From the NCBI GenBank assembly GCA_013041745.1, contig JABDRN010000045.1:1-49733 (forward strand): a stretch of DNA of 49,733 nt, read 5' to 3'. Positions 24,388-46,964 of the stretch are shown one piece after another. The notes under the pieces were generated by a model. That model worked only from the letters and a program-made list of their open reading frames with translations. It made no database searches and was not told the DNA's origin. Both the position numbers and the translations under genes were made by a program. The DNA comes from Gammaproteobacteria bacterium. GTDB taxonomy: Bacteria; Pseudomonadota; Gammaproteobacteria; SZUA-229. The number at the start of each line of letters is the position of its first letter. The stretch's first letter is position 1.

Positions 24388-25287
24388 TTATTTGCTGGCG
24401 ATGGCTTCCAGCTGCTTGGCCTTGATGATCTGCCCATCGAGACCAGCCTCTTTACCGTTTTTACCATAAGCTACTGACATCAGTGTGCTGTAGTAAGTAA
24501 CCGGGATATGGAACTTGGTGCCATACTGTGCATTGATCTTGTCCTGATAGACTTCTACGTTCATCTGACATACAGGGCAAGGTGTTACGATCATGTCTGC
24601 ACCGCCGTCATAGGCCGCTTCGATGATGTCCTTGATCAGTGCCTGTGACTTTTCTGGCTCAGAGAATGCCAGTGCACCACCACAGCATGAAACCTTCTTA
24701 TCGTAGTTTTCGACCGGCTCAGCCCCCATGGTTTCGATGAACTTATCGAGGTATTTAGGATTCTCGAAAGACTCGCCTTCGATACCGAATGGACGGTTGG
24801 TCTGACAGCCGACGTAACCGGCGATCTTGATACCATCTAACGGTTTCTTGACGTGCTTGCCCATCTCTTCATAACCGATGTCTTCGATCAGTACTTCGAC
24901 CATGTGACGGATCTTGCTATCATTCTTCAGGTTAAGACCGGCTTCGGCCAATGCCTGGTTAGTCTCATCCATCAGGCCAGCATCATCATCAAGACGTTCC
25001 TGTGTTTCTTTCGTTGCCAACCAGCAGGCAGCACAGGTTGCGACGATGTCCTGACCGGTATTGTGCTGTTCAGATAACGCGATGTTACGAGCAGACAGTG
25101 CCAGGCGAGGCAGTTCGCCACCACCACAGTAACCGATAGATGCTGAACAACAGTTCCAGTCTGGAATCACGTTAAGCTTCACATCCAGTACATCACACAT
25201 AGATTGCACGGACTTCAGGTAGTTAGAAGAGGACGCACCGTCTTGCGATGAACAACCCGGGTAAAATGAATATTCTTTAGTAGCCAT
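24388..25287 (-). CDS. hdrB: Heterodisulfide reductase subunit B-like protein
   Basis: The 299-residue protein carries two CCG cysteine motifs: C...CC...CxxC in YPGCSSQDG, DWNCCSASIG and ATCAACW, and again in GYVGCQTNRP, VSCCGGALAF and TPCPVCQMN. In HdrB these bind the noncubane Fe-S clusters that carry out thiol/disulfide chemistry. In sulfur bacteria with QmoAB, HdrB and HdrC can stand in for the missing QmoC. It is the last gene of the qmoAB-hdrCB operon. The start at 25287 gives the usual N-terminus, YSFYPGCSS. Confidence 0.93.
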   Translation of the reverse strand: MATKEYSFYPGCSSQDGASSSNYLKSVQSMCDVLDVKLNVIPDWNCCSASIGYCGGGELPRLALSARNIALSEQHNTGQDIVATCAACWLATKETQERLDDDAGLMDETNQALAEAGLNLKNDSKIRHMVEVLIEDIGYEEMGKHVKKPLDGIKIAGYVGCQTNRPFGIEGESFENPKYLDKFIETMGAEPVENYDKKVSCCGGALAFSEPEKSQALIKDIIEAAYDGGADMIVTPCPVCQMNVEVYQDKINAQYGTKFHIPVTYYSTLMSVAYGKNGKEAGLDGQIIKAKQLEAIASK

Positions 25288-25307
25288 TGTTATATACCTG
25301 CTCCAGT

Positions 25308-25931
25308 CTATTGAGCGTTATCAACACGAGCTGCTTCCAGCTCCTGTGCTTTCTTGATCATTGCCTTGAAGCCTTTCTTGTCTTTAACGGTGTGACCGCC
25401 AACAAGTTCTTTAAGGCTCAATCGACCTGCTTTAAGCATACCTAGACCGATACCAGCCATACCCAGGGCAACCTTGACACCTTCGACCAGGCCGTTCATG
25501 AAGTAAAGGTTAACACCTAACCATAGCTCGTTTACACGACCGTTCTTGGCGAGGTTATCCCAGAACAGCTGAGCGAACTGGCGTGTCGGCTGGCCTTTAG
25601 GCTCGATTCCAAGACGTGTCGCATAATGCGCCAGGCCGTGCATGATATGTGTGATCGGCAGCTCACGCGGACAACGTACGATACAGTTGTAGCATGAAGT
25701 ACACATCCACATCGATGTCGATTGCAACACTTCTTCACGTTTACCGGCACGGATCATCATGAACAGTTCCTGTGGCGGATGATCCCAGTCGGTCCCTAAA
25801 GGACAAGAGCCAGAACATACACCACATTGCATACACATCTTGACCCAATCGCCTTCTTCGACGTTGGCTTCAACTTCTTTCAGGAAGTTGTTGCGGTATT
25901 TTTCAACCATGCCTGTATTTAAATCACTCAT
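25308..25931 (-). CDS. hdrC: Heterodisulfide reductase subunit C-like ferredoxin protein
   Basis: This 207-residue protein has two ferredoxin-type motifs, CMQCGVCSGSCPLG (~residues 33-46) and CTSCYNCIVRCPRE (~77-90), which carry [4Fe-4S] clusters passing electrons between QmoB and HdrB. A C-terminal ~60-residue segment with a hydrophobic stretch (VALGMAGIGLGML) may contact the membrane but is too short to be the cytochrome b domain of QmoC. It lies 9 bases after qmoB and 20 before hdrB. Confidence 0.93.
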   Translation of the reverse strand: MSDLNTGMVEKYRNNFLKEVEANVEEGDWVKMCMQCGVCSGSCPLGTDWDHPPQELFMMIRAGKREEVLQSTSMWMCTSCYNCIVRCPRELPITHIMHGLAHYATRLGIEPKGQPTRQFAQLFWDNLAKNGRVNELWLGVNLYFMNGLVEGVKVALGMAGIGLGMLKAGRLSLKELVGGHTVKDKKGFKAMIKKAQELEAARVDNAQ

Positions 25932-25940
25932 GGCAGTCTC

Positions 25941-28193
25941 CTAGAATTTGAATGGGCTCATACCGATCTGTTCGATCGTATCAACCATTTCGTTAATGAT
26001 TTTCGGAACTTTATGAATATCAGTGATCGATATCTCATAAGTCTGTACACGTTCTTTTTCAAGACTCAATGACTCGAGCGTATCACCAACTTTTGACATA
26101 CGCTCCTGCGCCATCAACGAACCCTTGACGAAGTGACACTGGTAGTCATCACCGCTTGGGCAACCCATCAGGATGATACCGTCATAACCACTGTTCATCG
26201 AGTCGGTGATCCAGCTCAGGCTGACAGAGCCTAAACAACGAACCGGTATGATACGTGTAAACGCACTGTATTCCAGTTTGTTCTGTGCAGCCATATCCAG
26301 TGCAGGATAGGCATCGTTCTCACAGGCCAGCACCAGGATACGCGGTTTCTCGTCGAACTCATCAGGGATATCAACTGCTTTAAGCTGTTGACCGACGGTA
26401 TCGATCGAGTAGTTCTCGAACGAGATAACACGTACCGGACAGGCTCCCATACAGGTACCGCAACGGCGACAGCGTGACTCATTGAACTCGGGATAACCGT
26501 CATCGGTTTCGTTGATAGCACCGAAAGGACACTCAACCGTGCAGCGCTTACACTGTGTACAACCTTCAGCACGGAAGGTCGGGAAACTGAGATCTGCTAC
26601 ACGTGGATGTGCTGCTTTACCCAGACCTGCATTTTCAGCTGCTGCGATCGCTTTCATCGCTGCACCCATGGCATCATCCATCGCCTGCTGGGTATCCATC
26701 GGTCGACGAACCGGTCCTGCAGTATAGATACCGGTACGCTGGGTCTCATATGGGAAACAGATGAAGTGTGAGTCAGCAAAACCGTTATCCATGTGCGGCA
26801 CGTCTTTGCCCTGACGATAGTCAAGATTCAGGATAGACTCGACATCGATACGAATTTCTTTTTCTTCGCCAGCCTTTTCAGCCGCGATGTCCTCATTATC
26901 CTGATCAGTTAACTCTGCACGGCTCGGCTGGCCTGCATTAGGTACCATGCCTGTCGCCAGCACGACCATGTCGACTTCGAGATCAACGTCTTCGTCGAGG
27001 ATCAGGTCTTTGAACTTGACCGTCGGGTTTGCGCCATCGACTACTTCAGATGCGATACCTTTGGTAAAGATAACACCTTTTTTCTGACCACTGCGATAGA
27101 AGTTCTCGCCACCAGCACCCGGGGTACGCAGATCAGAGAACAGCACCGTAGTATCGACATCTGCATTCTGATCTTTGAAATACATCGCCTGCTTGATCGA
27201 AGCAGAACAGCAGTAACCCGAACAGTGTTCCAGGTGGCCTTCTTTCTTGCTGCGTTGACCGGCACACTGGATGAACAATACGCTCTGTACTTCTTTACCG
27301 TCAGAAGGACGCTTGATAGCACCGCCGTCGGCTTCTTTTGCCAACGCTTCCAGCTCCATCTGAGTAACGACATCTTTGTTCTTGCCATAAGCGAATTCAG
27401 GCAGCTGGTTTGCATCATACTCTGTGAAACCTGAAGCCTGGACGATAGCACCGAAATCCTTGGTCTCTGTGCTGCCACTCTCAGTGCTGATATCAGCTGC
27501 GAAACGGCCTGGCGCGCCGGCTGTATTCGTCAGTGTAGAATTCAGACAAACGGTGATATTGCTATCAGCTTCAACTGCTGCAACCATCGCATCGACACCG
27601 TTATCTTCCGGGTCTGCATACGGTGCTGATGTCGGGATCTTCTTGTATAGCTTCGCGGTTGCACCGCCCAGTTCACCGGATTTTTCAACGATGGTACAAG
27701 GGTAACCGGCTTTAGACGCTTCCAGTGCAGCAGTCATGCCTGCAACACCGCCACCGGCGATCAGGATATTCTTGTTCACACTCTGCTGGCCGCTGGCTTC
27801 AGGGATCTTCATGTACTTCGACTCGGCACATGCCATACGGATATAGTCGTCTGCCATCTCCTGCGTAGTCTCACGCTGGTCGTCTTCATCAGGGCGAACC
27901 CAGATCACGCCTTCACGCAGGTTTGCACGTGACAGGGTTACGTTGTCAAAGTTAAATGCTTCTGTTTTCGCACGTCGCGAGCATGCAGCCAGCACAACAT
28001 GGTTAACACCTTCGTTATCGATATCGTCCTGGATCATCTTGACGCCGGCTTCTGAACACAGGAAGTCGTGCTGCTGACAGACCGCAGCTTTACCGTCGCG
28101 TGTCGCAGTCATCTCGAGCTGAGAGGAATCCAGACGCTCGCCGATTCCACAGCCGTTACAGATATAAGCACCAATTTTCATTTCATCAGCCAT
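25941..28193 (-). CDS. qmoB: QmoB: HdrA-like flavoprotein with ferredoxin and MvhD-like domains
   Basis: QmoB (750 aa) belongs to the quinone-interacting oxidoreductase that exchanges electrons with APS reductase. An N-terminal segment with CNGCGIGERLD precedes an FAD-binding HdrA core (ILIAGGGVAGMTAALEAS, ~residue 145 on). Two [4Fe-4S] motifs follow, CTQCKRCTVECP and CRRCGTCMGACP (~545-590). From ~616 there is an MvhD/FlpD-like domain (VLACENDAYPALD, VRCLGSV, GCPSGDDYQCHF). This domain order and length are typical of QmoB rather than plain HdrA. No APS reductase (aprBA) genes are in the window. Confidence 0.92.
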   Translation of the reverse strand: MADEMKIGAYICNGCGIGERLDSSQLEMTATRDGKAAVCQQHDFLCSEAGVKMIQDDIDNEGVNHVVLAACSRRAKTEAFNFDNVTLSRANLREGVIWVRPDEDDQRETTQEMADDYIRMACAESKYMKIPEASGQQSVNKNILIAGGGVAGMTAALEASKAGYPCTIVEKSGELGGATAKLYKKIPTSAPYADPEDNGVDAMVAAVEADSNITVCLNSTLTNTAGAPGRFAADISTESGSTETKDFGAIVQASGFTEYDANQLPEFAYGKNKDVVTQMELEALAKEADGGAIKRPSDGKEVQSVLFIQCAGQRSKKEGHLEHCSGYCCSASIKQAMYFKDQNADVDTTVLFSDLRTPGAGGENFYRSGQKKGVIFTKGIASEVVDGANPTVKFKDLILDEDVDLEVDMVVLATGMVPNAGQPSRAELTDQDNEDIAAEKAGEEKEIRIDVESILNLDYRQGKDVPHMDNGFADSHFICFPYETQRTGIYTAGPVRRPMDTQQAMDDAMGAAMKAIAAAENAGLGKAAHPRVADLSFPTFRAEGCTQCKRCTVECPFGAINETDDGYPEFNESRCRRCGTCMGACPVRVISFENYSIDTVGQQLKAVDIPDEFDEKPRILVLACENDAYPALDMAAQNKLEYSAFTRIIPVRCLGSVSLSWITDSMNSGYDGIILMGCPSGDDYQCHFVKGSLMAQERMSKVGDTLESLSLEKERVQTYEISITDIHKVPKIINEMVDTIEQIGMSPFKF

Positions 28194-28196
28194 GGT

Positions 28197-29483
28197 CTAG
28201 CCCTCCGCCTGTGCTACTTTATTAACAACCTGTATGGCTCTTAACGCAGAAGCTGTTGCACTTTGCACTGCACGGTTAACGTCCAGTGCATCAGATGAAC
28301 AACCAGCAGCAAACACACCGCCATTGGCTTCGTCATGTTCGATGAAGCCTTCGTCATTCACTTTAATTTCGATCGGGAACGTATCTTTATCGACACTTGG
28401 TTCCATACCAATCGCTAGCACGACGAGGTCATGCTCATTTGCATAACGGTTGTAACCTTCGGTGTCGACACCGTTCAATACCGGGTTGCCGTTCTCTTTA
28501 TTCTCGACGATGTTGGCAACTTTCGATTTGATGAAAGTGACGTTTTCATCGTCCTGTACCTTCTGGTAGAAGTTGTCGAAGCGGTCGATGGCACGGATAT
28601 CGATATAGTAGATCGATACATCAGCATCGTCACCAAACTTCTCAGAGACGTATGTTGACTGCTTGAGTGAAGCCATGCAGCAGATACGCGAACAATGCTT
28701 CAGATAGTTGCGGTCACGTGAACCGGCACACTGTATGAATGCGACGTTCTTGGCCTCTTTACCGTCAGATGGACGCACCAGCTTGCCTTCGGTAGGACCA
28801 AACGGGTCCATCAGGCGTTCGAACTCGACGCTGGTGATAACGTTAGCGATACGGTCATAACCATATGGCTGGATCTTGTTGGCATCATATGGACGCCAGC
28901 CGGTTGCCCAGACGACTGCACCAGCTTTCAGCTCGATGGTCTCTTCCTGCATGTCCAGATCGATCGCATCGTATTTACATGCGTCTTTGGCTTTCTGCGC
29001 ATCATCGCTGCCGATCATGCCTGGATCGATGACATAACGCTTTGGCATCGCCATGTTATGCGGCAGATAAGCACCTTTGTGCTTGTTCATGTTGTAGTTA
29101 TGCTCATCATCAAACTCGGCTTCGACTGCATCAGCACAAGCACCGCAGGCGGTACAGTTTGAGTTCACATAACGTGGGCTAACTTTCACAGTTGCTGTGT
29201 AATCGCCAGCTTCACCCTGCAGGTCAGTCACTTCCGCCATGGTAAGAACGGTGATGTTCTTGTTCGCAGCCATACGTCGCTGGTTTATTTCCAGGCCACA
29301 GGTCGGAAAACATAACTTGGGGAAGTATTTATATAATTTGGTTACTCGACCACCAACAGAGGGTGTCTTTTCAATAACAATAACCTGTTTGCCGACTTCG
29401 GCAGCTTCTAATGCAGCAGTCATGCCGCTTATGCCACCGCCAACAACCAGGATTGTCTGATTAGTTGCAACTATATCCGACAT
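28197..29483 (-). CDS. qmoA: QmoA: HdrA-like flavoprotein
   Basis: QmoA (428 aa) is the short HdrA-type FAD protein of the Qmo complex. The FAD site is VVGGGISGMTAALEAAEVGK. Cysteine motifs include CFPTCGLEINQRRM, CTACGAC near residue 113, and a late KHCSRICCMASLKQ. Compared with QmoB it lacks the ferredoxin and MvhD domains. It is the first gene of the operon; a clear GGAGG ribosome binding site lies at about 29490. Its stop is only three bases before the qmoB start. Function in electron transfer between quinone and APS reductase is by family. Confidence 0.92.
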   Translation of the reverse strand: MSDIVATNQTILVVGGGISGMTAALEAAEVGKQVIVIEKTPSVGGRVTKLYKYFPKLCFPTCGLEINQRRMAANKNITVLTMAEVTDLQGEAGDYTATVKVSPRYVNSNCTACGACADAVEAEFDDEHNYNMNKHKGAYLPHNMAMPKRYVIDPGMIGSDDAQKAKDACKYDAIDLDMQEETIELKAGAVVWATGWRPYDANKIQPYGYDRIANVITSVEFERLMDPFGPTEGKLVRPSDGKEAKNVAFIQCAGSRDRNYLKHCSRICCMASLKQSTYVSEKFGDDADVSIYYIDIRAIDRFDNFYQKVQDDENVTFIKSKVANIVENKENGNPVLNGVDTEGYNRYANEHDLVVLAIGMEPSVDKDTFPIEIKVNDEGFIEHDEANGGVFAAGCSSDALDVNRAVQSATASALRAIQVVNKVAQAEG

Positions 29484-32506: not shown

Positions 32507-33487
32507 TCAGGCACCTGGACCTGCAACCTGCAGGTAGTGCACACTGAACAAACGCTCTTCATCGAGCCAGGTTTTGACACTGTTGAAGCCCGCCTCTCGG
32601 GCAAGCTGCTGGAAATGCTCGACAGTATATTTATGTGAATACTCGGTATGGATACGCTGGCCTTTTTCAAATTTAAAGACCTGGTCACCGATGCTTATAT
32701 GTTGATCCTGTCGGCTGACCAGGTGCATCTCTATGCGGTGTTTTTCTTTATTGAAAAAGGCAAGGTGCTCGAACTGCTCGAGATCAAAGTCAGCACCAAG
32801 CTCACGATTGATCCTGAGCAAGAGGTTCTTATTGAACTGCTCGGTAAATCCTTCTCTATCATTATAGGCCGCATTTAAGATCGCACTCTCTTTCTGCAGA
32901 TCGACACCGATCAACAGGCCGCCGTCATCGCCCACCATCATCCTGATCTCCCGTAATACCGTGACAGCCTGCTGTGGCAGAAAATTACCGATGGTTGAGC
33001 CGGGAAAGAAAGCGACTTTATTGACGGCTTCGACATGGTAAGGCAGTTCCAGATTGCCTGTGAAGTCGGCACATACAGCATGTACATTCAACCAGGTGAA
33101 TTCTGCCGCCAGCTTCTGCGCCTCATCCTGCAGGTAGCGCCTGGAAATATCGATAGGCAGGTAGGCGACAGGCCTGAGCGCATCCAGCAGCAAACGCACC
33201 TTATAACTGTCGCCACTACCCGGCTCGATCAACAGACAATCTTTTCCCAGCGTGTTGACGATATCATCGATATTATTCCGGATGATGCTGACCTCTGTTC
33301 TCGTCGGGTAATACTCTTGTGTGTTGCAGATGTCTTCAAACAGCCGGGAACCGGTCTCATCATAGAAATATTTGGGCAGGATATATGGTTCCGGCGCAGA
33401 CAGACCGCGAATGATGTCCTCACGAAAGTCGGCAATCTCTGGATGCTGATCAAAAAACTGGTAACGCTGCGGCTGTTTATCTGGCAT
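32507..33487 (-). CDS. egtD: EgtD-type histidine N-alpha-trimethyltransferase
   Basis: The 326-residue protein belongs to the EgtD family, which trimethylates histidine with S-adenosylmethionine to make hercynine. Conserved blocks include FDQHPEIADFREDI near the start, YFYDETGSRLFEDIC, the SAM site LIEPGSGDSYKVRLLLDAL and PGSTIGNFLPQQA. The C-terminus resembles RIHTEYSHKYTVE with AGF, as in the family. It lies next to a SelD fusion and close to SenB- and SenA-type genes, so the hercynine is probably destined for selenoneine, possibly also ergothioneine. No egtA, egtC or egtE is seen. Confidence 0.92.
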   Translation of the reverse strand: MPDKQPQRYQFFDQHPEIADFREDIIRGLSAPEPYILPKYFYDETGSRLFEDICNTQEYYPTRTEVSIIRNNIDDIVNTLGKDCLLIEPGSGDSYKVRLLLDALRPVAYLPIDISRRYLQDEAQKLAAEFTWLNVHAVCADFTGNLELPYHVEAVNKVAFFPGSTIGNFLPQQAVTVLREIRMMVGDDGGLLIGVDLQKESAILNAAYNDREGFTEQFNKNLLLRINRELGADFDLEQFEHLAFFNKEKHRIEMHLVSRQDQHISIGDQVFKFEKGQRIHTEYSHKYTVEHFQQLAREAGFNSVKTWLDEERLFSVHYLQVAGPGA

Positions 33488-33767
33488 TGTTTTGCATCGG
33501 TTTAGCTTTTTAGATTGTACTCACCCTATCGCAGTCATGGTATCGTCGCAACAAAAAACATCGGCGAATACATTCCGCTCCTACAGAACCACTCTCCTTT
33601 AGAAGCGCTATGTTAAGCGCGATCGCGACCTGCCTGTGAAGAGTCGTTCAGCGGTGGCGGCCAAGCTCTAACCAGTTCTAAAATGATGACATTTAAACAG
33701 CCATAAATTACGTGTAAGCTAGACCCTGTCGTTCCATCAAAAACCGAGTATTTCGAAAACTACCTGC

Positions 33768-36038
33768 ATGAATAACGCGAACACAATACCGGTCATAAAG
33801 GATCTCGTTCTAGTAGGCGGCGGTCATAGCCATCTTTTCGTACTGAAATATTTTGCTATGAACCCGGTACCGGGATTACGCCTGACATTGATCACCCGTG
33901 ATCTGCACACACCCTATTCCGGCATGTTGCCCGGTTATATCGCCGGCCATTACCAGTATGATGAAGCACATATCGATCTGCGGCCACTGGCACAATTTGC
34001 CCAGGCACGAATCTACCATGCCGAAGTCAGTGATATCGATCTTGAAAACAGCAACATCATCTGCCCTGGCCGACCACCAATACATTTTGATGTTGTTTCC
34101 ATCAATATCGGCTCGCGTCCCGGCACACTGCATATCCCCGGTGCCGATAGTTACAGCATGCCGGTAAAACCGATCGACCACTTCCTCGATCATTGGGCCC
34201 TGCTCTCTGACAGGATAGTAACAGCTGAAGATGATTTTCACCTCGCCATCGTTGGCGGCGGTGCCGGCGGTGTCGAGATGGCACTGGCAACACAGTATCG
34301 ACTGAAACACTTGCTCAGGCAGCAGCATCGTTCCGACGAATTCCTGCACATCGACTTATATTGCGGCAGCGATGGTATTCTTCCTACCCATAACAAGCAG
34401 GTACAAAAACGTTTTCGCCGGATCCTCGAACAACGAGATATTCGAGTGCACTTCAGCACCCGCGTAGAAGAAGTGCATGAGAACCACCTGCTGACCAGCG
34501 ATGGTGAACAGCCGCAGGCAGATGGTGTCATATGGGTCACCAACGCATCCGCGCCGGCATGGTTGGCAGAGACCGGTCTGGACCTGGATGAAAAAGGCTT
34601 CATCGCGGTAAATGACAGCCTGCAATCAAGCTCGCATGATAACGTTTTCGCTGCCGGTGATATCGCCTCGGTGATCGATCACCCGCGCCCCAAGTCGGGG
34701 GTATTTGCAGTTCGCCAGGGACCACCGTTAGCCCGTAACCTGGCGCGTGCGATACAGAATCGACCAGTCAAAGTATTCATCCCGCAGACCAATTTCCTGG
34801 GGCTGATCAGTACCGGTGATAAATATGCCATCGCCTCCCGCGGCAACTGGTCTCTCGAAGGTGCCTGGTTATGGAACATAAAAGACTGGATCGACCGGCG
34901 CTTCATGAAAAACTTTAATGATCTGCCCGAGATGCAACAGCCCGGTCTACCGCAATTCGACCGAGCGATGACGGATGACAAGACACTGCATGAGATATCA
35001 GCCATCGCCATGCGCTGCGGTGGCTGTGGTGCCAAAGTCGGCAGCACGGTGTTATCTCGAGTGATCAATCGTTTACACCCGATCAGCCGGGACGATATCG
35101 TCATCGGATTGGCTGATCCGGATGATGCCTCGGTCACCGAAGTACCCGCAGGAAAACTGGTCGTACAGAGCGTCGATTATTTTCGCAGCTTCATCGATGA
35201 TCCATATGTCTTCGGACAGATTGCAGCCAACCATGCACTCAGCGATATCTTTGCAATGGGCGCGGAAACACAGTCTGCGATGGCGATAGCTACTATTCCC
35301 TATGGTATCGAAGACCAGGTCGAGGACCAGCTGTTTCAGGCCATGTCTGGCGCCATAGACGTATTGAATGCCAGTAACACCGCGCTGGTCGGCGGACATT
35401 CCAGTGAAGGTGCCGAGCTTTCATTTGGCCTCTCAGTGACCGGCCTCGCTAGCCGCGAGCAGGTGATGAGAAAATCCGGTATGCAGCCAGGCGACATCTT
35501 GATCATCACCAAGGCATTGGGTACCGGCACCCTGTTTGCGGCCGACATGCGATTAAAAGCGAAAGGCCGATGGATCGATGCAGCCCTGCAGAGCATGCTG
35601 TTATCAAACCAGGCGGCAGGATTTTGCATGCATCGCCATGGCGCCACTGCCTGTACTGATATAACCGGTTTTGGCCTGCTCGGTCATATCGTTGAGATGA
35701 CTCGCTCCTCAGGCAACAGCGTCGAACTTGCATTAGATTCACTGCCGATCATGGATGGTGCTCTGGAGATGATCGAGGCCGGCATATTCAGTTCCCTGCA
35801 GCAGCAGAATGTCCGGCTGCGCCGTGCGATAAAAGACCCTGGCGAACTGAGAGAGCATAAACACTTCCCGTTATTATTTGATCCACAGACATCTGGCGGC
35901 CTGCTCGCTGCGATTCCAGCTGATAAGGCCGAAGCATGTTTAGCTGAACTGCGTGAGCTCGGCTACCCTGCCAGCGTGATCATCGGTTCGGTGATCGACG
36001 ACGAGCAAAGCGTGGAAAGTGTTAGCTTAAAAGCGTAA
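33768..36038 (+). CDS. selD: NDH-like flavoprotein fused to selenide, water dikinase (SelD/SenC role)
   Basis: This 756-residue protein has two parts. Residues 1 to ~390 form a pyridine-nucleotide:disulfide oxidoreductase-like domain with VLVGGGHSHLFVLKYF and a second dinucleotide site, IVGGGAGGVEMALA. Residues ~405-756 are SelD, which makes selenophosphate from selenide and ATP. Its catalytic pair is preserved as C420 and K423 in RCGGCGAKVG, followed by DYFRSFIDDPYVFGQIAANH, GGHSSEGAE, DITGFGLLGH and DPQTSGGLL. Fusions of this kind are known in cyanobacteria and proteobacteria; the flavoprotein's substrate is not established. The position between egtD and senB-senA suggests service to selenoneine synthesis. 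Confidence 0.93.
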   Translation: MNNANTIPVIKDLVLVGGGHSHLFVLKYFAMNPVPGLRLTLITRDLHTPYSGMLPGYIAGHYQYDEAHIDLRPLAQFAQARIYHAEVSDIDLENSNIICPGRPPIHFDVVSINIGSRPGTLHIPGADSYSMPVKPIDHFLDHWALLSDRIVTAEDDFHLAIVGGGAGGVEMALATQYRLKHLLRQQHRSDEFLHIDLYCGSDGILPTHNKQVQKRFRRILEQRDIRVHFSTRVEEVHENHLLTSDGEQPQADGVIWVTNASAPAWLAETGLDLDEKGFIAVNDSLQSSSHDNVFAAGDIASVIDHPRPKSGVFAVRQGPPLARNLARAIQNRPVKVFIPQTNFLGLISTGDKYAIASRGNWSLEGAWLWNIKDWIDRRFMKNFNDLPEMQQPGLPQFDRAMTDDKTLHEISAIAMRCGGCGAKVGSTVLSRVINRLHPISRDDIVIGLADPDDASVTEVPAGKLVVQSVDYFRSFIDDPYVFGQIAANHALSDIFAMGAETQSAMAIATIPYGIEDQVEDQLFQAMSGAIDVLNASNTALVGGHSSEGAELSFGLSVTGLASREQVMRKSGMQPGDILIITKALGTGTLFAADMRLKAKGRWIDAALQSMLLSNQAAGFCMHRHGATACTDITGFGLLGHIVEMTRSSGNSVELALDSLPIMDGALEMIEAGIFSSLQQQNVRLRRAIKDPGELREHKHFPLLFDPQTSGGLLAAIPADKAEACLAELRELGYPASVIIGSVIDDEQSVESVSLKA

Positions 36039-36083
36039 GTTTTTTTCATCGCTGAAGCGCAGAGCAAAAAATATAACTAATAT

Positions 36084-36160
36084 GTCATCTCGACCAGCGG
36101 GAGAGATCTTTTGTAAGTAAATATTCTCTCCTCAAGATCTCTTCCGCTGGTCGAGATGAC
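36084..36160. repeat. Long palindromic intergenic repeat between selD and senB
   Basis: Arms at 36084-36110 and 36134-36160 are complementary with one mismatch in 27 and enclose a 23-base loop. The arms begin GTCATCTCGACCAGCGG. The element lies between convergent genes and could act as a bidirectional transcription stop. Its form is that of a dispersed miniature repeat. Confidence 0.85.
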
Positions 36161-36183
36161 AGACTGTTTATTTCTCTGCGATG

Positions 36184-36244
36184 AAGGTTTTCAGCTCCAG
36201 AGGAAGATTTTCAATCTCCAGATGAAGGTTTTCAACTGAAAGAG
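36184..36244. repeat. Three tandem ~20-bp imperfect direct repeats
   Basis: Consecutive units begin AAGGTTTTCAGCTCCAG (36184), AAGATTTTCAATCTCCAG (36204) and AAGGTTTTCAACTG (36225), with a period of 20-21 bases. They end 17 bases before the senB stop. Nothing indicates coding. Confidence 0.6.
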
Positions 36245-36261
36245 ATTCGTTGAGATCAAAC

Positions 36262-37230
36262 TCAATACCCCATATCCTTTAACAGGTCAGCCCAACCCTG
36301 CTTTTCGGCTTCCCGGGTAAATAAACCCGCACGTTTCTGGCACTGTGCATGCAGCCTGTTCACATAATCCGGTTCTGCTTCCGCCTTCATCAAAAGTTCA
36401 CGCAAAGCGTCCGTTTCCTGTACCGGGTAATAGCCAGCGTAGTCTTCGCCCAACAGCCCCACTGAGCCATCTATATCGGAAGCGATCACCGGCAGCCCGG
36501 CAACGACCGCCTCAGATATAACATTAGCCCCACCCTCCATCACTGAGGACAGCACCATCAGGTGGCAGCTGCTGTAGGCCCGCCGTACCTTCCAGTGCGG
36601 TACTTCACCTAACCAGTGGTAGCGCGGATTTATCTCCATCTCATGTCTGGCATATGAAGCCCATTCATCATTATGCGCCTTGCCATAATGCAATATTCTT
36701 ATGCGGCTATCACCGGGCAGGTCCCTGGTAGCATAGGCGGCACGCATCGAGTCCTTTTCCTGCCTTAGATGACCGACCACACAGACATCGAAATGGCGGA
36801 GCGAACGTTTGCCTGATGCTGATAACGATGCAGGTAGCGGCACGGCTGACTGATGGATGACATGAACCTTATCATGCGAGGACGCCGGCAATACACGCGT
36901 TGCGAGGTGGTGTAGCGTCACCAGCCGGTCAGCAGCCCTGATCGATGCCAGTGTCGGCTCAGGATGACTGTTGATAAAACCATATAGATCCGTACCCGTC
37001 ATCGCTACGACCAGGGGGCGATCGGGGTATCGCTGTTTGAATGCTGCGATGGAATCTGCACTGCGCCATGCATGCAGCGCCAGCATTAAATCATATTCAT
37101 CACCATGCCATTTGACATCGATACTTACGCGGTGACCCAGCTCATGTAAGAACCCTGCCCAGCGCAGAGCAGTCGCTCGATTTCCACTTAGTGATTTAGC
37201 CGCGGCAGGTGTTATTATTCCTATATGCAT
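36262..37230 (-). CDS. senB: Selenosugar synthase SenB-type glycosyltransferase
   Basis: The 322-residue protein is a GT4-like glycosyltransferase of the family found with selenoneine genes. SenB couples selenophosphate with a UDP-sugar to make a 1-seleno-sugar. Recognisable blocks are IITPAAAKSLSGNRATALRW at the start, DLMLALHAWRSADSIAAF, PLVVAMTGTDLYGF, DVCVVGHLRQEKDSMRAA, NPRYHWLGEVPHW and SSVMEGGANVISEAVVAGLP. The last carries the sugar-nucleotide-binding Glu. The gene is divergent from the SenA-type gene with only 37 bases between their starts. The call rests on sequence resemblance plus the neighbourhood of selD, egtD and senA. Confidence 0.87.
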   Translation of the reverse strand: MHIGIITPAAAKSLSGNRATALRWAGFLHELGHRVSIDVKWHGDEYDLMLALHAWRSADSIAAFKQRYPDRPLVVAMTGTDLYGFINSHPEPTLASIRAADRLVTLHHLATRVLPASSHDKVHVIHQSAVPLPASLSASGKRSLRHFDVCVVGHLRQEKDSMRAAYATRDLPGDSRIRILHYGKAHNDEWASYARHEMEINPRYHWLGEVPHWKVRRAYSSCHLMVLSSVMEGGANVISEAVVAGLPVIASDIDGSVGLLGEDYAGYYPVQETDALRELLMKAEAEPDYVNRLHAQCQKRAGLFTREAEKQGWADLLKDMGY

Positions 37231-37267
37231 TACCCCATGTTAAACCAATTAAACACCTAATCGAAAT
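37231..37267. promoter_or_regulatory. 37-bp senB/senA divergent intergenic region
   Basis: Only 37 AT-rich bases separate the two start codons, so the core promoters of senB and senA must overlap each other or reach into the opposite gene. No convincing -10/-35 pair, operator or ribosome binding site stands out here. Confidence 0.4.
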
Positions 37268-38575
37268 ATGTCAGAGACAACCATCACTGAGCAGACAATA
37301 AATTCATTGATCGATGATCTAAAAGATGCTCGAAAGCGCACACTGGAACTGGTTGAAGACCTTGATGAGCAGCAGATCATCGGCCCAAAACTCGATATCG
37401 TCAACCCGCTGCTATGGGAGATCGGTCATACTGCATATTTCCATGAACTATGGACCTTGCGACACCAGGATGGCGCTGACCCGTTGCTGGAAAATGCTGA
37501 CGAACTTTATGACTCGATAAGTATCGCCCATGATGACCGCTGGAACCTTCCATTGTTATCTCTGGATGATACCAGGGACTATATGCAACAGGTTCTCGAT
37601 GCTGAAATTGACCGTCTGAAGAATAAAAAGGTTACTGCCGCTGATATCTACCTCACTCGATACGCCATATTTCATGAAGATATGCATACAGAGGCATATA
37701 CCTATAGCCGACGCACACTTGATTATCCGGCACCCATATTCGAGAACAGTGTCCTGCATGATGAGGCTTATGACACAGGCGCCCTCGATGGCGATGTGGT
37801 AATCGAGGGTGGTCGTTTTTTACTGGGCGCCCGCGAAGATACCGAGTTCTGTTTTGATAATGAGAAATGGCAGCACCCGTTAGAGATAAAAACTTTTTCT
37901 ATGGCCAGAGCAGCGACCAGCTTTCAGCAATTTGCCGCATTCGTTGATGCTGGTGGTTACCAGAACCGGAAATACTGGGACCGGGATGGCTGGAACTGGC
38001 TGCAGCAGAATAATCTGCAAGCCCCCAATGGCTGGAAAAAAGATGAAGAAGGTAACTGGCTGATCAAAGAGTTTGACCTTTGGCAACCGGTGCGGCCGCA
38101 TGCAGCGGTAATCCATATTAGCTGGTATGAGGCCAGCGCCTGGTGTCGTTGGGCACAGCGACGCCTGCCAAGCGAAGCCGAGTGGGAACTGGCGGCCTCG
38201 GGAGTACCGGGAAACATTAACCAGAAACGGAAATACCCCTGGGGCGAGGAGCAGCCGAGTGAGAGACATGTCAATATGAATTCACGCGCCATGCGCAGCA
38301 TCGATGTCAGCGCATTGCCAGAGGGCGATAGTGCATATGGCTGCCGGCAGATGCTGGGTAATGTGTGGGAATGGACCGCGGATACTTTCAAACCCTACCC
38401 CGGCTTCGTCGCAGACATGTACCAGGACTACTCACAGCCGCTGTTCGGCCAGACCAAAGTCTTACGTGGCGGCGCCTGGCCAACCCGCTCACGCATGATT
38501 CGCAATACCTGGCGTAATTATTATGGCGCGGAAAGGAATGATGTTTTTGCAGGGTTCAGGAGCTGCGCCCTATAG
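37268..38575 (+). CDS. senA: SenA/EgtB-type iron-dependent C-Se (C-S) bond-forming oxygenase
   Basis: This 435-residue protein has the EgtB/SenA architecture: an N-terminal DinB-like four-helix domain and a C-terminal formylglycine-generating-enzyme-like fold. Iron ligands correspond to H54 (EIGHTAYFHE) and H136/H140 (FHEDMHTEA). The C-terminal domain has ISWYEASAWCRWAQRRLPSE, GNVWEWTADTF, VLRGGAWPTR and FAGFRSCAL. EgtB joins hercynine to a thiol; SenA joins hercynine to a selenosugar. Divergence from a SenB-type gene and proximity to selD favour SenA. The alternative, an ergothioneine-type EgtB, cannot be excluded from sequence reading alone. Confidence 0.88.
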   Translation: MSETTITEQTINSLIDDLKDARKRTLELVEDLDEQQIIGPKLDIVNPLLWEIGHTAYFHELWTLRHQDGADPLLENADELYDSISIAHDDRWNLPLLSLDDTRDYMQQVLDAEIDRLKNKKVTAADIYLTRYAIFHEDMHTEAYTYSRRTLDYPAPIFENSVLHDEAYDTGALDGDVVIEGGRFLLGAREDTEFCFDNEKWQHPLEIKTFSMARAATSFQQFAAFVDAGGYQNRKYWDRDGWNWLQQNNLQAPNGWKKDEEGNWLIKEFDLWQPVRPHAAVIHISWYEASAWCRWAQRRLPSEAEWELAASGVPGNINQKRKYPWGEEQPSERHVNMNSRAMRSIDVSALPEGDSAYGCRQMLGNVWEWTADTFKPYPGFVADMYQDYSQPLFGQTKVLRGGAWPTRSRMIRNTWRNYYGAERNDVFAGFRSCAL

Positions 38576-39474: not shown

Positions 39475-40905
39475 CTATTGATCTTTGTAGGCAAACACAC
39501 TGTCTTCGTTATCGACATGGTGTTCCTCCAACCAGGAAAGCTTCTCATGTAATGACACGACTTCACCGACGATTATCAGTGTCGGCGGTTTGATATCCTC
39601 GCTGGCGATAACATCGAGCAATGTATCAAGCGTCGCTATATAAACCCGCTGCTGCGGCGTGGTGCCCTGTTCGACCAGCGCAACCGGTGTCGTCGGTGGT
39701 AGCCCATGTGCCACCATCTCCTTGCATAATGTCGGTGCTCCATGCAATCCCATATAGAACACAACCGTCTGGTTCGGATGTGCCAGCGCCTTCCAGTTCA
39801 GATCGACCGACCCGTCTTTTAGATGGCCGGTAACAAAAACACAGGACTGCGCATAATCTCTATGCGTCAGCGGAATACCTGCATATGAAGAACAGCCGGT
39901 CGCCGCAGTGATACCGGGCACCACCTGGAATGCCACTCCTTCCTCAGCCAGTAGCTCGATCTCTTCGCCACCGCGGCCGAAGATGAAAGGATCACCCCCT
40001 TTCAAGCGTAAAACACGTTTTCCCTCTTTCGCCAGGCGTACCAGCAACTGGTTGATGTTTTCCTGCTGCATGGTGTGCTTGTCGCGTTCTTTACCGACAT
40101 AGACGACCTCTGCATCGCGGCGCACCATCTCCATGATAGCTGGTGACACCAGGCGATCGTAAACCACGACATCGGCCTGCTGCATCAGTCGCAGAGCACG
40201 GAATGTCAGCAGGTCAGGGTCCCCCGGACCGGCACCGACTAAAAATACTTCACCGGGAATCTGCGGAACTACCGACTGCTCATCGATCGCTTTATCCAGC
40301 ATCTTTTTCGCGTCGTTCTCATGACCGGTAAAGACCATCTCGGCAACACTGCCCTGGAGGATTTTTTCCCAGAAGCTGCGACGTGATTCGACATCAGGGA
40401 ACGCAGCCTTTACTTTATCACGGAAACTTTCGACGAGTTTTGCCAACTGTCCGTATGCCGCCGGAATACTGCCCTCCAGCCTGGTTCGGATCAACCGCGC
40501 CAGTACCGGAGATGAACCGCCTGTAGAAACCGCGATGACGACAGGTGAACGATCGATGATCGATGGCATGATAAAGCTGCCCTGCTTTGGATTATCCACC
40601 ACATTTACCGGCACGCTGAATTTATTCGCCAGGTCAGAGATATGCTGATTAACATCATGCTGGTCAGTCGCTGCGATAACAATGACACATTCATCAAGGT
40701 CAGAGTCTTCAAAAATACGCGCCTTGTGTTCGATCAAACCCTGCTGGCTCAAGCCCTCTAGTTCTGCACAGAGCTGAGGAGAAACAACGGTGACATCAGC
40801 CTGTGCTTTTCGCAATAGTGCGACCTTGCGTGCTGCGATAGAACCTCCACCAACGACCAGACAGGGGCGGTTTTTAATCTGAATAAATATTGGCAGGTAT
40901 TCCAT
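39475..40905 (-). CDS. cysG: Siroheme synthase CysG
   Basis: This 476-residue trifunctional enzyme makes siroheme from uroporphyrinogen III. The N-terminal half is the precorrin-2 dehydrogenase/ferrochelatase with the NAD site VVGGGSIAARKVALL and a dimer domain. The C-terminal half, from ~215, is the methyltransferase: VGAGPGDPDLLTFRALRLM, YVGKERDKHTMQQ, RLKGGDPFIFGRGGEE and VVPGITAATGC. Length is normal. Siroheme is needed by sulfite reductases, including Dsr enzymes, which fits a sulfur-metabolising host. Confidence 0.96.
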   Translation of the reverse strand: MEYLPIFIQIKNRPCLVVGGGSIAARKVALLRKAQADVTVVSPQLCAELEGLSQQGLIEHKARIFEDSDLDECVIVIAATDQHDVNQHISDLANKFSVPVNVVDNPKQGSFIMPSIIDRSPVVIAVSTGGSSPVLARLIRTRLEGSIPAAYGQLAKLVESFRDKVKAAFPDVESRRSFWEKILQGSVAEMVFTGHENDAKKMLDKAIDEQSVVPQIPGEVFLVGAGPGDPDLLTFRALRLMQQADVVVYDRLVSPAIMEMVRRDAEVVYVGKERDKHTMQQENINQLLVRLAKEGKRVLRLKGGDPFIFGRGGEEIELLAEEGVAFQVVPGITAATGCSSYAGIPLTHRDYAQSCVFVTGHLKDGSVDLNWKALAHPNQTVVFYMGLHGAPTLCKEMVAHGLPPTTPVALVEQGTTPQQRVYIATLDTLLDVIASEDIKPPTLIIVGEVVSLHEKLSWLEEHHVDNEDSVFAYKDQ

Positions 40906-46190: not shown

Positions 46191-46964
46191 GCATTTACCT
46201 GGTTCTTTTTGTTAGGCATTGTGGGTCTCGCCCCACAGGCGAGGCACTCATTCCTTCGTTGGATGAATTCTCTCTTTTTGACGCTGCTTAAGTACGTGAA
46301 TTGTTATCACGAGTTTCGCCTTGTTACGGCGAGTCACTTTTCTTTCAATAGCAAAAGAAAAGTAACCAAAAGAATGCCATCCCGCATTGTTTGCCCCGAG
46401 AAAAGCGCTCGGGGTGCCTGAATTGCTTACTGTTGCCAACGAGCCCGCCCTGATGCGCCATCCGGGCGCACAAGGCTAAATTCGCCGTCCATGGCGAATT
46501 TGCTCTACCAACAGTGAGCAATTCAGCAAACAAAAAGGGAAGTTAAGTCAAAAACCTAAAAGCAAAACCAGTGTAAATGTTTCAGCTCGGTAAGCAGTCG
46601 GCGATACCGGTTTCTGTTTTTTCTTTTGGTTTAGGCTTTCAACCCACCTTAGCAAGCCATTGAGGCGGTGCTGTTAGCATGGGCTTTCTGGGCCAGCTGT
46701 CTGAGCGTTTTCTGCGAGTTCTGGCACAGCATGATAACAGTATTGCCTCAATGGGAACCCCTGTGCCTTCTAGAGGGGCGTAGCTATAGTGGCGGCCTTT
46801 TACAAAACACGTCCTGTGTTTTGCCCTTCGGGCCAGCCAAATAACAGCTGTTCAATTTTGCTCCTTGCAAAATTAGTCTGGGTACTCTTTTGGGCTGTTG
46901 TAAAAGAGTACCTCGCCTGTGGGGCAAGACCCACAATGCCTAACAAAAAGAACCAGGTAAATGC
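46191..46964. mobile_element. ~774-bp non-coding element with 59-bp terminal inverted repeats
   Basis: Bases 46191-46249 and 46906-46964 are inverted copies with two mismatches in 59. The interior holds more dyads: 46657-46680 with 46731-46754 (20 of 24 bases), CTGAATTGC...GCAATTCAG arms around 46419 and 46515, AAATTCGCC/GGCGAATTT, and a GTCACTTTTCTTT/AAAGAAAAGTAAC hairpin near 46330-46365. No open frame inside resembles a transposase. It fills the whole gap between the convergent DUF2069 and hda genes. It looks like a non-autonomous transposon or a stack of intergenic repeats. Confidence 0.75.

Follow-up and report, generated by a model that had tools for sequence, protein, structure and literature searches.

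Selenoneine, a compound made from histidine, is a very strong antioxidant, and its origin in the sea is a matter of debate. The sen cluster and the selenoneine pathway of Variovorax paradoxus were reportedly described by Kayrouz et al. in 2022. A stretch of 49,733 nucleotides (the window) from a gammaproteobacterium, kin to the sulfur-oxidising Thiotrichaceae, carries genes of this type together with egtD, and raises the question of which product such a block makes and whether its composition is unusual. In the accessible text of PMC9814287, PMC10702425 and PMC10891094, the senA-senB-senC cluster of V. paradoxus is the selenoneine pathway, which these sources follow from selenide through selenophosphate, a selenosugar and a selenoxide to selenoneine. 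To place the locus in its genomic setting, we used the host assembly (2.97 Mb, 138 contigs, 95.7% complete), in which absences are provisional.

The genes egtD (-), selD fusion (+), senB (-) and senA (+) form one 6-kb block at 32507-38575, with the following features:

32507-33487, minus strand: egtD, 326 aa, L-histidine N-alpha-methyltransferase (TIGR03438, substrate-site residues)
33488-33767: intergenic region of the divergent genes egtD and selD, 280 bp
33768-36038, plus strand: selD fusion, 756 aa, Ndh-like flavoprotein plus selenophosphate synthetase (TIGR03169, TIGR00476)
36073-36171: inverted repeat of 38 bp where selD and senB converge, one copy of a repeat dispersed through the genome
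36262-37230, minus strand: senB, 322 aa, predicted Se-glycosyltransferase (selenosugar synthase; TIGR04348, solved matches)
37231-37267: intergenic region of the divergent genes senB and senA, 37 bp
37268-38575, plus strand: senA, 435 aa, predicted iron-dependent selenoneine synthase (NF041186, TIGR04373, residues, trees, model)

The 37-bp gap must hold or overlap the start regions of both senB and senA, and a sigma-70-like match for senB is predicted at 37243-37214 by consensus alone. The convergent selD and senB are spaced by 223 bp, and the inverted repeat between them is a genome-wide dispersed element that is not specific to the sen locus, its arms having 17 matches in the genome against 0 for the reversed control. 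Further away, Hdr/Qmo-like redox genes at 24388-29483 (two HdrA-like flavoproteins with HdrC/HdrB-like subunits) are those that an initial annotation, made from the sequence, called lithotrophic energy genes. A siroheme synthase gene, cysG, is found at 39475-40905, and a TwoAYGGAY RNA (RF01731) matches at 46403-46541 of the minus strand with 65 bits, where the gathering score is 43.

All four genes lie at the coordinates given in that annotation and carry the identities it had named, each passing its NCBIfam equivalog cut-off; on sequence these are strong matches, well past chance. EgtD scores 399 bits against TIGR03438 (NCBIfam, cut-off 291) and has M. smegmatis EgtD as its best solved match. 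In the alignment its N168, Y208, M254, E282 and S284 fall at the positions of the EgtD substrate site, where they presumably have the roles of the aligned residues at the histidine site. A role of Asn166 in this site is described in PMC9103826. The selD product joins an Ndh-like flavoprotein domain (approximately residues 12-383) to a selenophosphate synthetase domain (approximately 415-750) and exceeds the cut-offs of both TIGR03169, the N-terminal-to-SelD model (486 bits against 310), and TIGR00476 for SelD itself (291 against 125), while it falls under that of TIGR04369, 'fusion_not_SelD' (474 against 700 bits). Within its CGGC motif (C417-C420), C420 aligns with C17 of E. coli SelD, and K423 with K20, which we take to be the active cysteine and lysine. 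The glycosyltransferase, originally called SenB-type, scores 403 bits against the SenB equivalog TIGR04348 (NCBIfam, cut-off 300) and matches 8k5u, 8jjn and 8fbx among solved structures. Its N17, T20, K159 and E232 correspond in the alignment to N20, T23, K158 and E231 of V. paradoxus SenB, the catalytic lysine (K158) being kept as K159. The motif EGGANV replaces the EGGAHV of characterised SenBs, and is found in 88 of the 88 related frames scanned.

The SenA protein passes two NCBIfam models, NF041186 (484 bits, cut-off 420) and the TIGR04373 signature (82.7, cut-off 71). Its residues H54, H136 and H140, already recognised as being in place, match the three iron-ligand histidines in every EgtB, SenA and OvsA row of the alignment. 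The presence of EgtD, the first enzyme of ergothioneine synthesis, allows another reading of the block, in which the oxygenase takes a sulfur donor to make ergothioneine and senB and selD are adjacent by chance; the oxygenase superfamily is common to both pathways, and the SenA fold is close to that of EgtB (Z 49.7). However, SenA scores 306 bits against the EgtB model TIGR03440, under the cut-off of 360, and has M139 and W92 in place of EgtB residues, EgtB rows having Q (or R) at position 139. Its H88, W92, M139 and A143, residues of the selenium branch, also occur in Variovorax SenA and in 66 of the 66 clade members.

Phylogenetic placement was the check set beforehand for the oxygenase, and we used two trees, one of 89 rows and one of 63 rows to which a second Variovorax-type sequence was added. 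A selenium branch comprising SenA, OvsA and Variovorax SenA stands apart from the ergothioneine EgtBs with support of 99/99 (89 rows) and 100/99 (63 rows), and the window's protein falls within it. In the 89-row tree it nests with its own relatives (100/98) in a senB-adjacent clade of 67 rows (94/94), throughout which the senB adjacency is kept, and both EgtB types of the host's bacterial family form further separate clades. Ergothioneine synthesis through EgtB is rejected on the model score and the tree. For the polysulfide route through EanB, which requires Cys412 and adjoins its EgtD homologue, the host genome gave no long multi-rhodanese EanB-like frame, its reading frames with rhodanese domains reaching 361 aa at most, a search in which divergent domains could be missed and which speaks weakly against this route. 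Altogether we consider an ergothioneine locus highly unlikely.

A closer contender, absent from the initial annotation, is an ovoselenol-type locus, in which the oxygenase would be an OvsA that adds selenium at C5 of histidine while EgtD serves elsewhere. Among solved structures, the sequence search with SenA ranks OvsA (330 bits) above EgtB (243) and Variovorax SenA (219). The AlphaFold model of SenA, which reached pLDDT 94 with 55 sequences and 55 with 12 sequences, ranks them alike, with Z 50.5 for OvsA, 49.7 for EgtB and 43.1 for the SenA-hercynine complex. The nearest solved structure by both sequence and fold is thus OvsA of Halomonas utahensis (8u41, 8u42, 8ux5; 40% identity, 417 residues aligned), ahead of Variovorax SenA, to which the identity is 38-39% over the structural alignment. 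Moreover, in related loci of Thiotrichaceae (L088, and probably L079-L086 as well) ovsA and a methyltransferase accompany a senB that is 65-69% identical. The NF041186 score does not by itself separate the two enzymes, since this model also admits an OvsA-type protein of Halomonadaceae (L130, 428 against 420), and automatic annotation through it may label ovoselenol genes senA. By contrast, TIGR04373 is passed by the window's SenA and a Variovorax-type protein, and OvsA-type proteins are not among its listed matches.

What separates the two enzymes is the substrate triad, which in the alignment is Y388/N417/Y418 in the window, Y/N/F in V. paradoxus SenA and M/Q/A in the histidine-binding OvsA and two relatives. 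The OvsA variant M401Y/Q430N/A431F (8ux5) is titled in the PDB as hercynine-binding, with selenoneine-biosynthetic activity. As M/Q/A thus occurs in OvsA and Y/N/F in its hercynine-binding variant, we read the Y/N/Y of the window as a hercynine-type site with Y for F at the third position. OvsA also forms its own 100/100 clade in the 89-row tree with the window's SenA outside it, although in the 63-row tree both alternatives tested for how OvsA and the two SenA groups branch had p-AU 0.39. Finally, the locus includes EgtD and lacks a methyltransferase of the type that neighbours OvsA. The triad, the clade and the type of neighbouring methyltransferase lead us to reject OvsA, and an ovoselenol product is improbable.

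In seven Thiotrichaceae-type loci (L079, L080, L083-L086 and L088) senB and selD occur and senA is missing from their vicinity. An OvsA-type gene and a SAM methyltransferase gene lie near them in L088, and this methyltransferase recurs at the edge of L085, so that the set looks like ovoselenol loci. Separately, T replaces N at SenA position 417 in 15 of the 66 senB-adjacent SenA relatives, and the acceptor may differ in these proteins.

The hercynine-type triad and the linked hercynine-making EgtD agree, and support the reading that the four-gene block very probably makes selenoneine. EgtD would trimethylate L-histidine to hercynine, and the SelD domain of the fusion would form selenophosphate from selenide and ATP, with the N-terminal flavoprotein domain perhaps helping to supply reduced selenium. 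SenB would then convert selenophosphate and a UDP-sugar into a 1-selenosugar, and SenA with iron and O2 would place selenium on C2 of the hercynine ring, giving a selenoxide that would collapse and be reduced to selenoneine. This chemistry is carried over from characterised homologues (PMC9814287, PMC10702425, PMC10891094), in keeping with the earlier statement that the SenA-SenB-SelD route is already established. The original selenoneine reading is therefore supported, although the product is one that we infer, as did the initial annotation, from the enzyme identities and active-site type that the sequence gives. We count as points against selenoneine that by overall similarity OvsA is the nearest solved structure, that the 63-row tree does not choose between the possible orders of SenA, OvsA and Variovorax SenA, that Y418 replaces F and that SenB has EGGANV. 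The last two, together with the Ndh-SelD fusion, mark a lineage that departs from the Variovorax type and would suit a further, undescribed hercynine-based selenium metabolite, for example one that retains the sugar. Such a product is the least probable that we considered, as no additional tailoring gene is conserved within the block and both SenB and SenA retain their catalytic residues.

The selenoneine reading may also be set against the other possible uses of selenium and hercynine in the cell. The host genome encodes a single SenA/EgtB-type protein, one EgtD and one SelD over the cut-off. No other EgtB-, OvoA- or OvsA-type oxygenase was found in this 95.7%-complete genome and the locus contains no second ergothioneine gene, which agrees with the description of egtD as the only such gene and leaves hercynine with no other visible consumer. 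SelA was not found in the host assembly (138 contigs, 95.7% complete), SelB exceeded the cut-off in 0 of 54 genomes of the order, and the only other selenium user found in the host is MnmH, for tRNA selenouridine. With one SelD and MnmH in the genome, the fusion therefore seems to supply selenium for selenoneine and selenouridine alike. A related genome, G024, has SenA and the SelD fusion with neither SelB nor MnmH over the cut-off, so selenoneine may be its sole use of selenium.

Across the order SenA accompanies the fusion SelD (12/13 against 3/41) and EgtD (12/13 against 10/41), and stand-alone SelD accompanies MnmH, with shared ancestry inflating all of these counts; the one exception to the pairing of SenA and fusion, G018, has its gene interrupted by a contig end (L111). 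According to the accessible text of PMC2398784, fusions of this kind that carry a CxxC motif, known from 2008 onwards, are common in marine samples and have functions that are not fully clear. The window's protein resembles these marine Ndh-SelD fusions in its NADH-dehydrogenase-like N-terminal domain and CxxC active site, and the accessible text of PMC2398784 and PMC4561486 names no small-molecule use for them, whereas the window's fusion is part of a sen block and its genome is one where neither SelA nor SelB was found. This would give one concrete use for a protein type common in marine metagenomes. We rejected the idea that the fusion is exclusive to selenometabolites, because two of four full-length Rhodobacterales plasmid fusions (L232, L233) adjoin mnmH, the other two records being unannotated; the Ndh-SelD fusion thus also accompanies tRNA selenouridine.

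As in the V. paradoxus sen cluster, SenA, SenB and a selenophosphate synthetase are encoded together in the window with catalytic residues kept. Unlike that cluster, the block includes egtD, has an Ndh-SelD fusion rather than a stand-alone SelD and is arranged as two divergent pairs, so that its particulars are a lineage-specific form of SelD and an integrated egtD. The initial annotation was correct in placing egtD within the block, but its view of this linkage as notable did not hold. In a species-genome scan that gave 465 SenB relatives, of which the best 80 were examined for egtD, the gene lay in the fetched stretch of at least 18 of these 80 sen loci, many contigs ending early. In an even class sample of 369 members, SenB exceeded the cut-off in 23, all of which (23/23) also encode EgtD; in 8 of the 23, egtD and senB lie no more than 10 kb apart. 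Hercynine synthesis accompanies SenB throughout this sample, and the linkage of egtD to sen genes is recurrent in two layouts, that of the window and senA-egtD-selD. EgtDs from the senA-senB-selD-egtD layout form one clade (100/99) apart from the egtB-linked EgtDs of the family.

The block also appears at more than one site. The order pilB-DUF302-cysG-SH3-(senA senB selD egtD)-slt-ychJ is conserved in the window's genus (L076, L078, L142, L228), and the genus g14 (L225, L226) has these four genes, likewise ordered, without the pilB, DUF302, cysG, SH3, slt and ychJ neighbours, which is evidence, from gene order, for movement of the whole block between sites. The family's egtB-egtD pairs (L014-L017) likewise combine EgtD with an EgtB-fold oxygenase, but this is a true EgtB (590 against 360 bits in L014) and senB and selD are not adjacent. 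One such pair, in G033 (L221, G033:C34, 9869-17460), occupies the same SH3-cysG-DUF302-pilB site, and the simplest reading of this single contig (L221) is that the sulfur version and the selenium version were exchanged there. From the occurrence of a selenium block and a sulfur pair at one site in different genera, and the mobility of the block, one might propose that in this family, whose members are presumed to oxidise sulfur, selenoneine takes the place of ergothioneine as histidine-betaine antioxidant, the lineage switching between sulfur and selenium by gene replacement as the block moves as a unit; we hold this to be a tentative and rather doubtful proposal. If true, the site swap would mean that evolution can exchange the sulfur form of a metabolite with its selenium form.

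While the selenoneine pathway itself is known, this locus adds a block that seems mobile as a unit and an intermediate with no other visible use in the cell. The block compactly combines hercynine synthesis with the insertion of selenium, and it lies in a genome where hercynine has no other visible consumer and no selenocysteine system was found. It provides a clean set of genes with which to test selenoneine production by bacteria.

Two minor observations concern relatives of these proteins. Four genomes of the same family (G029, G030, G031 and G049) encode a second EgtB-like type that scores 204-266 bits against the SenA model, yet gave no EgtD match. Stand-alone kin of the fusion's N-terminal flavoprotein domain occur on Burkholderia glumae plasmids (for example NZ_CP045091.1, 78759-79844), where the gene adjoins that of a TIGR04282 arsenosugar-type glycosyltransferase.
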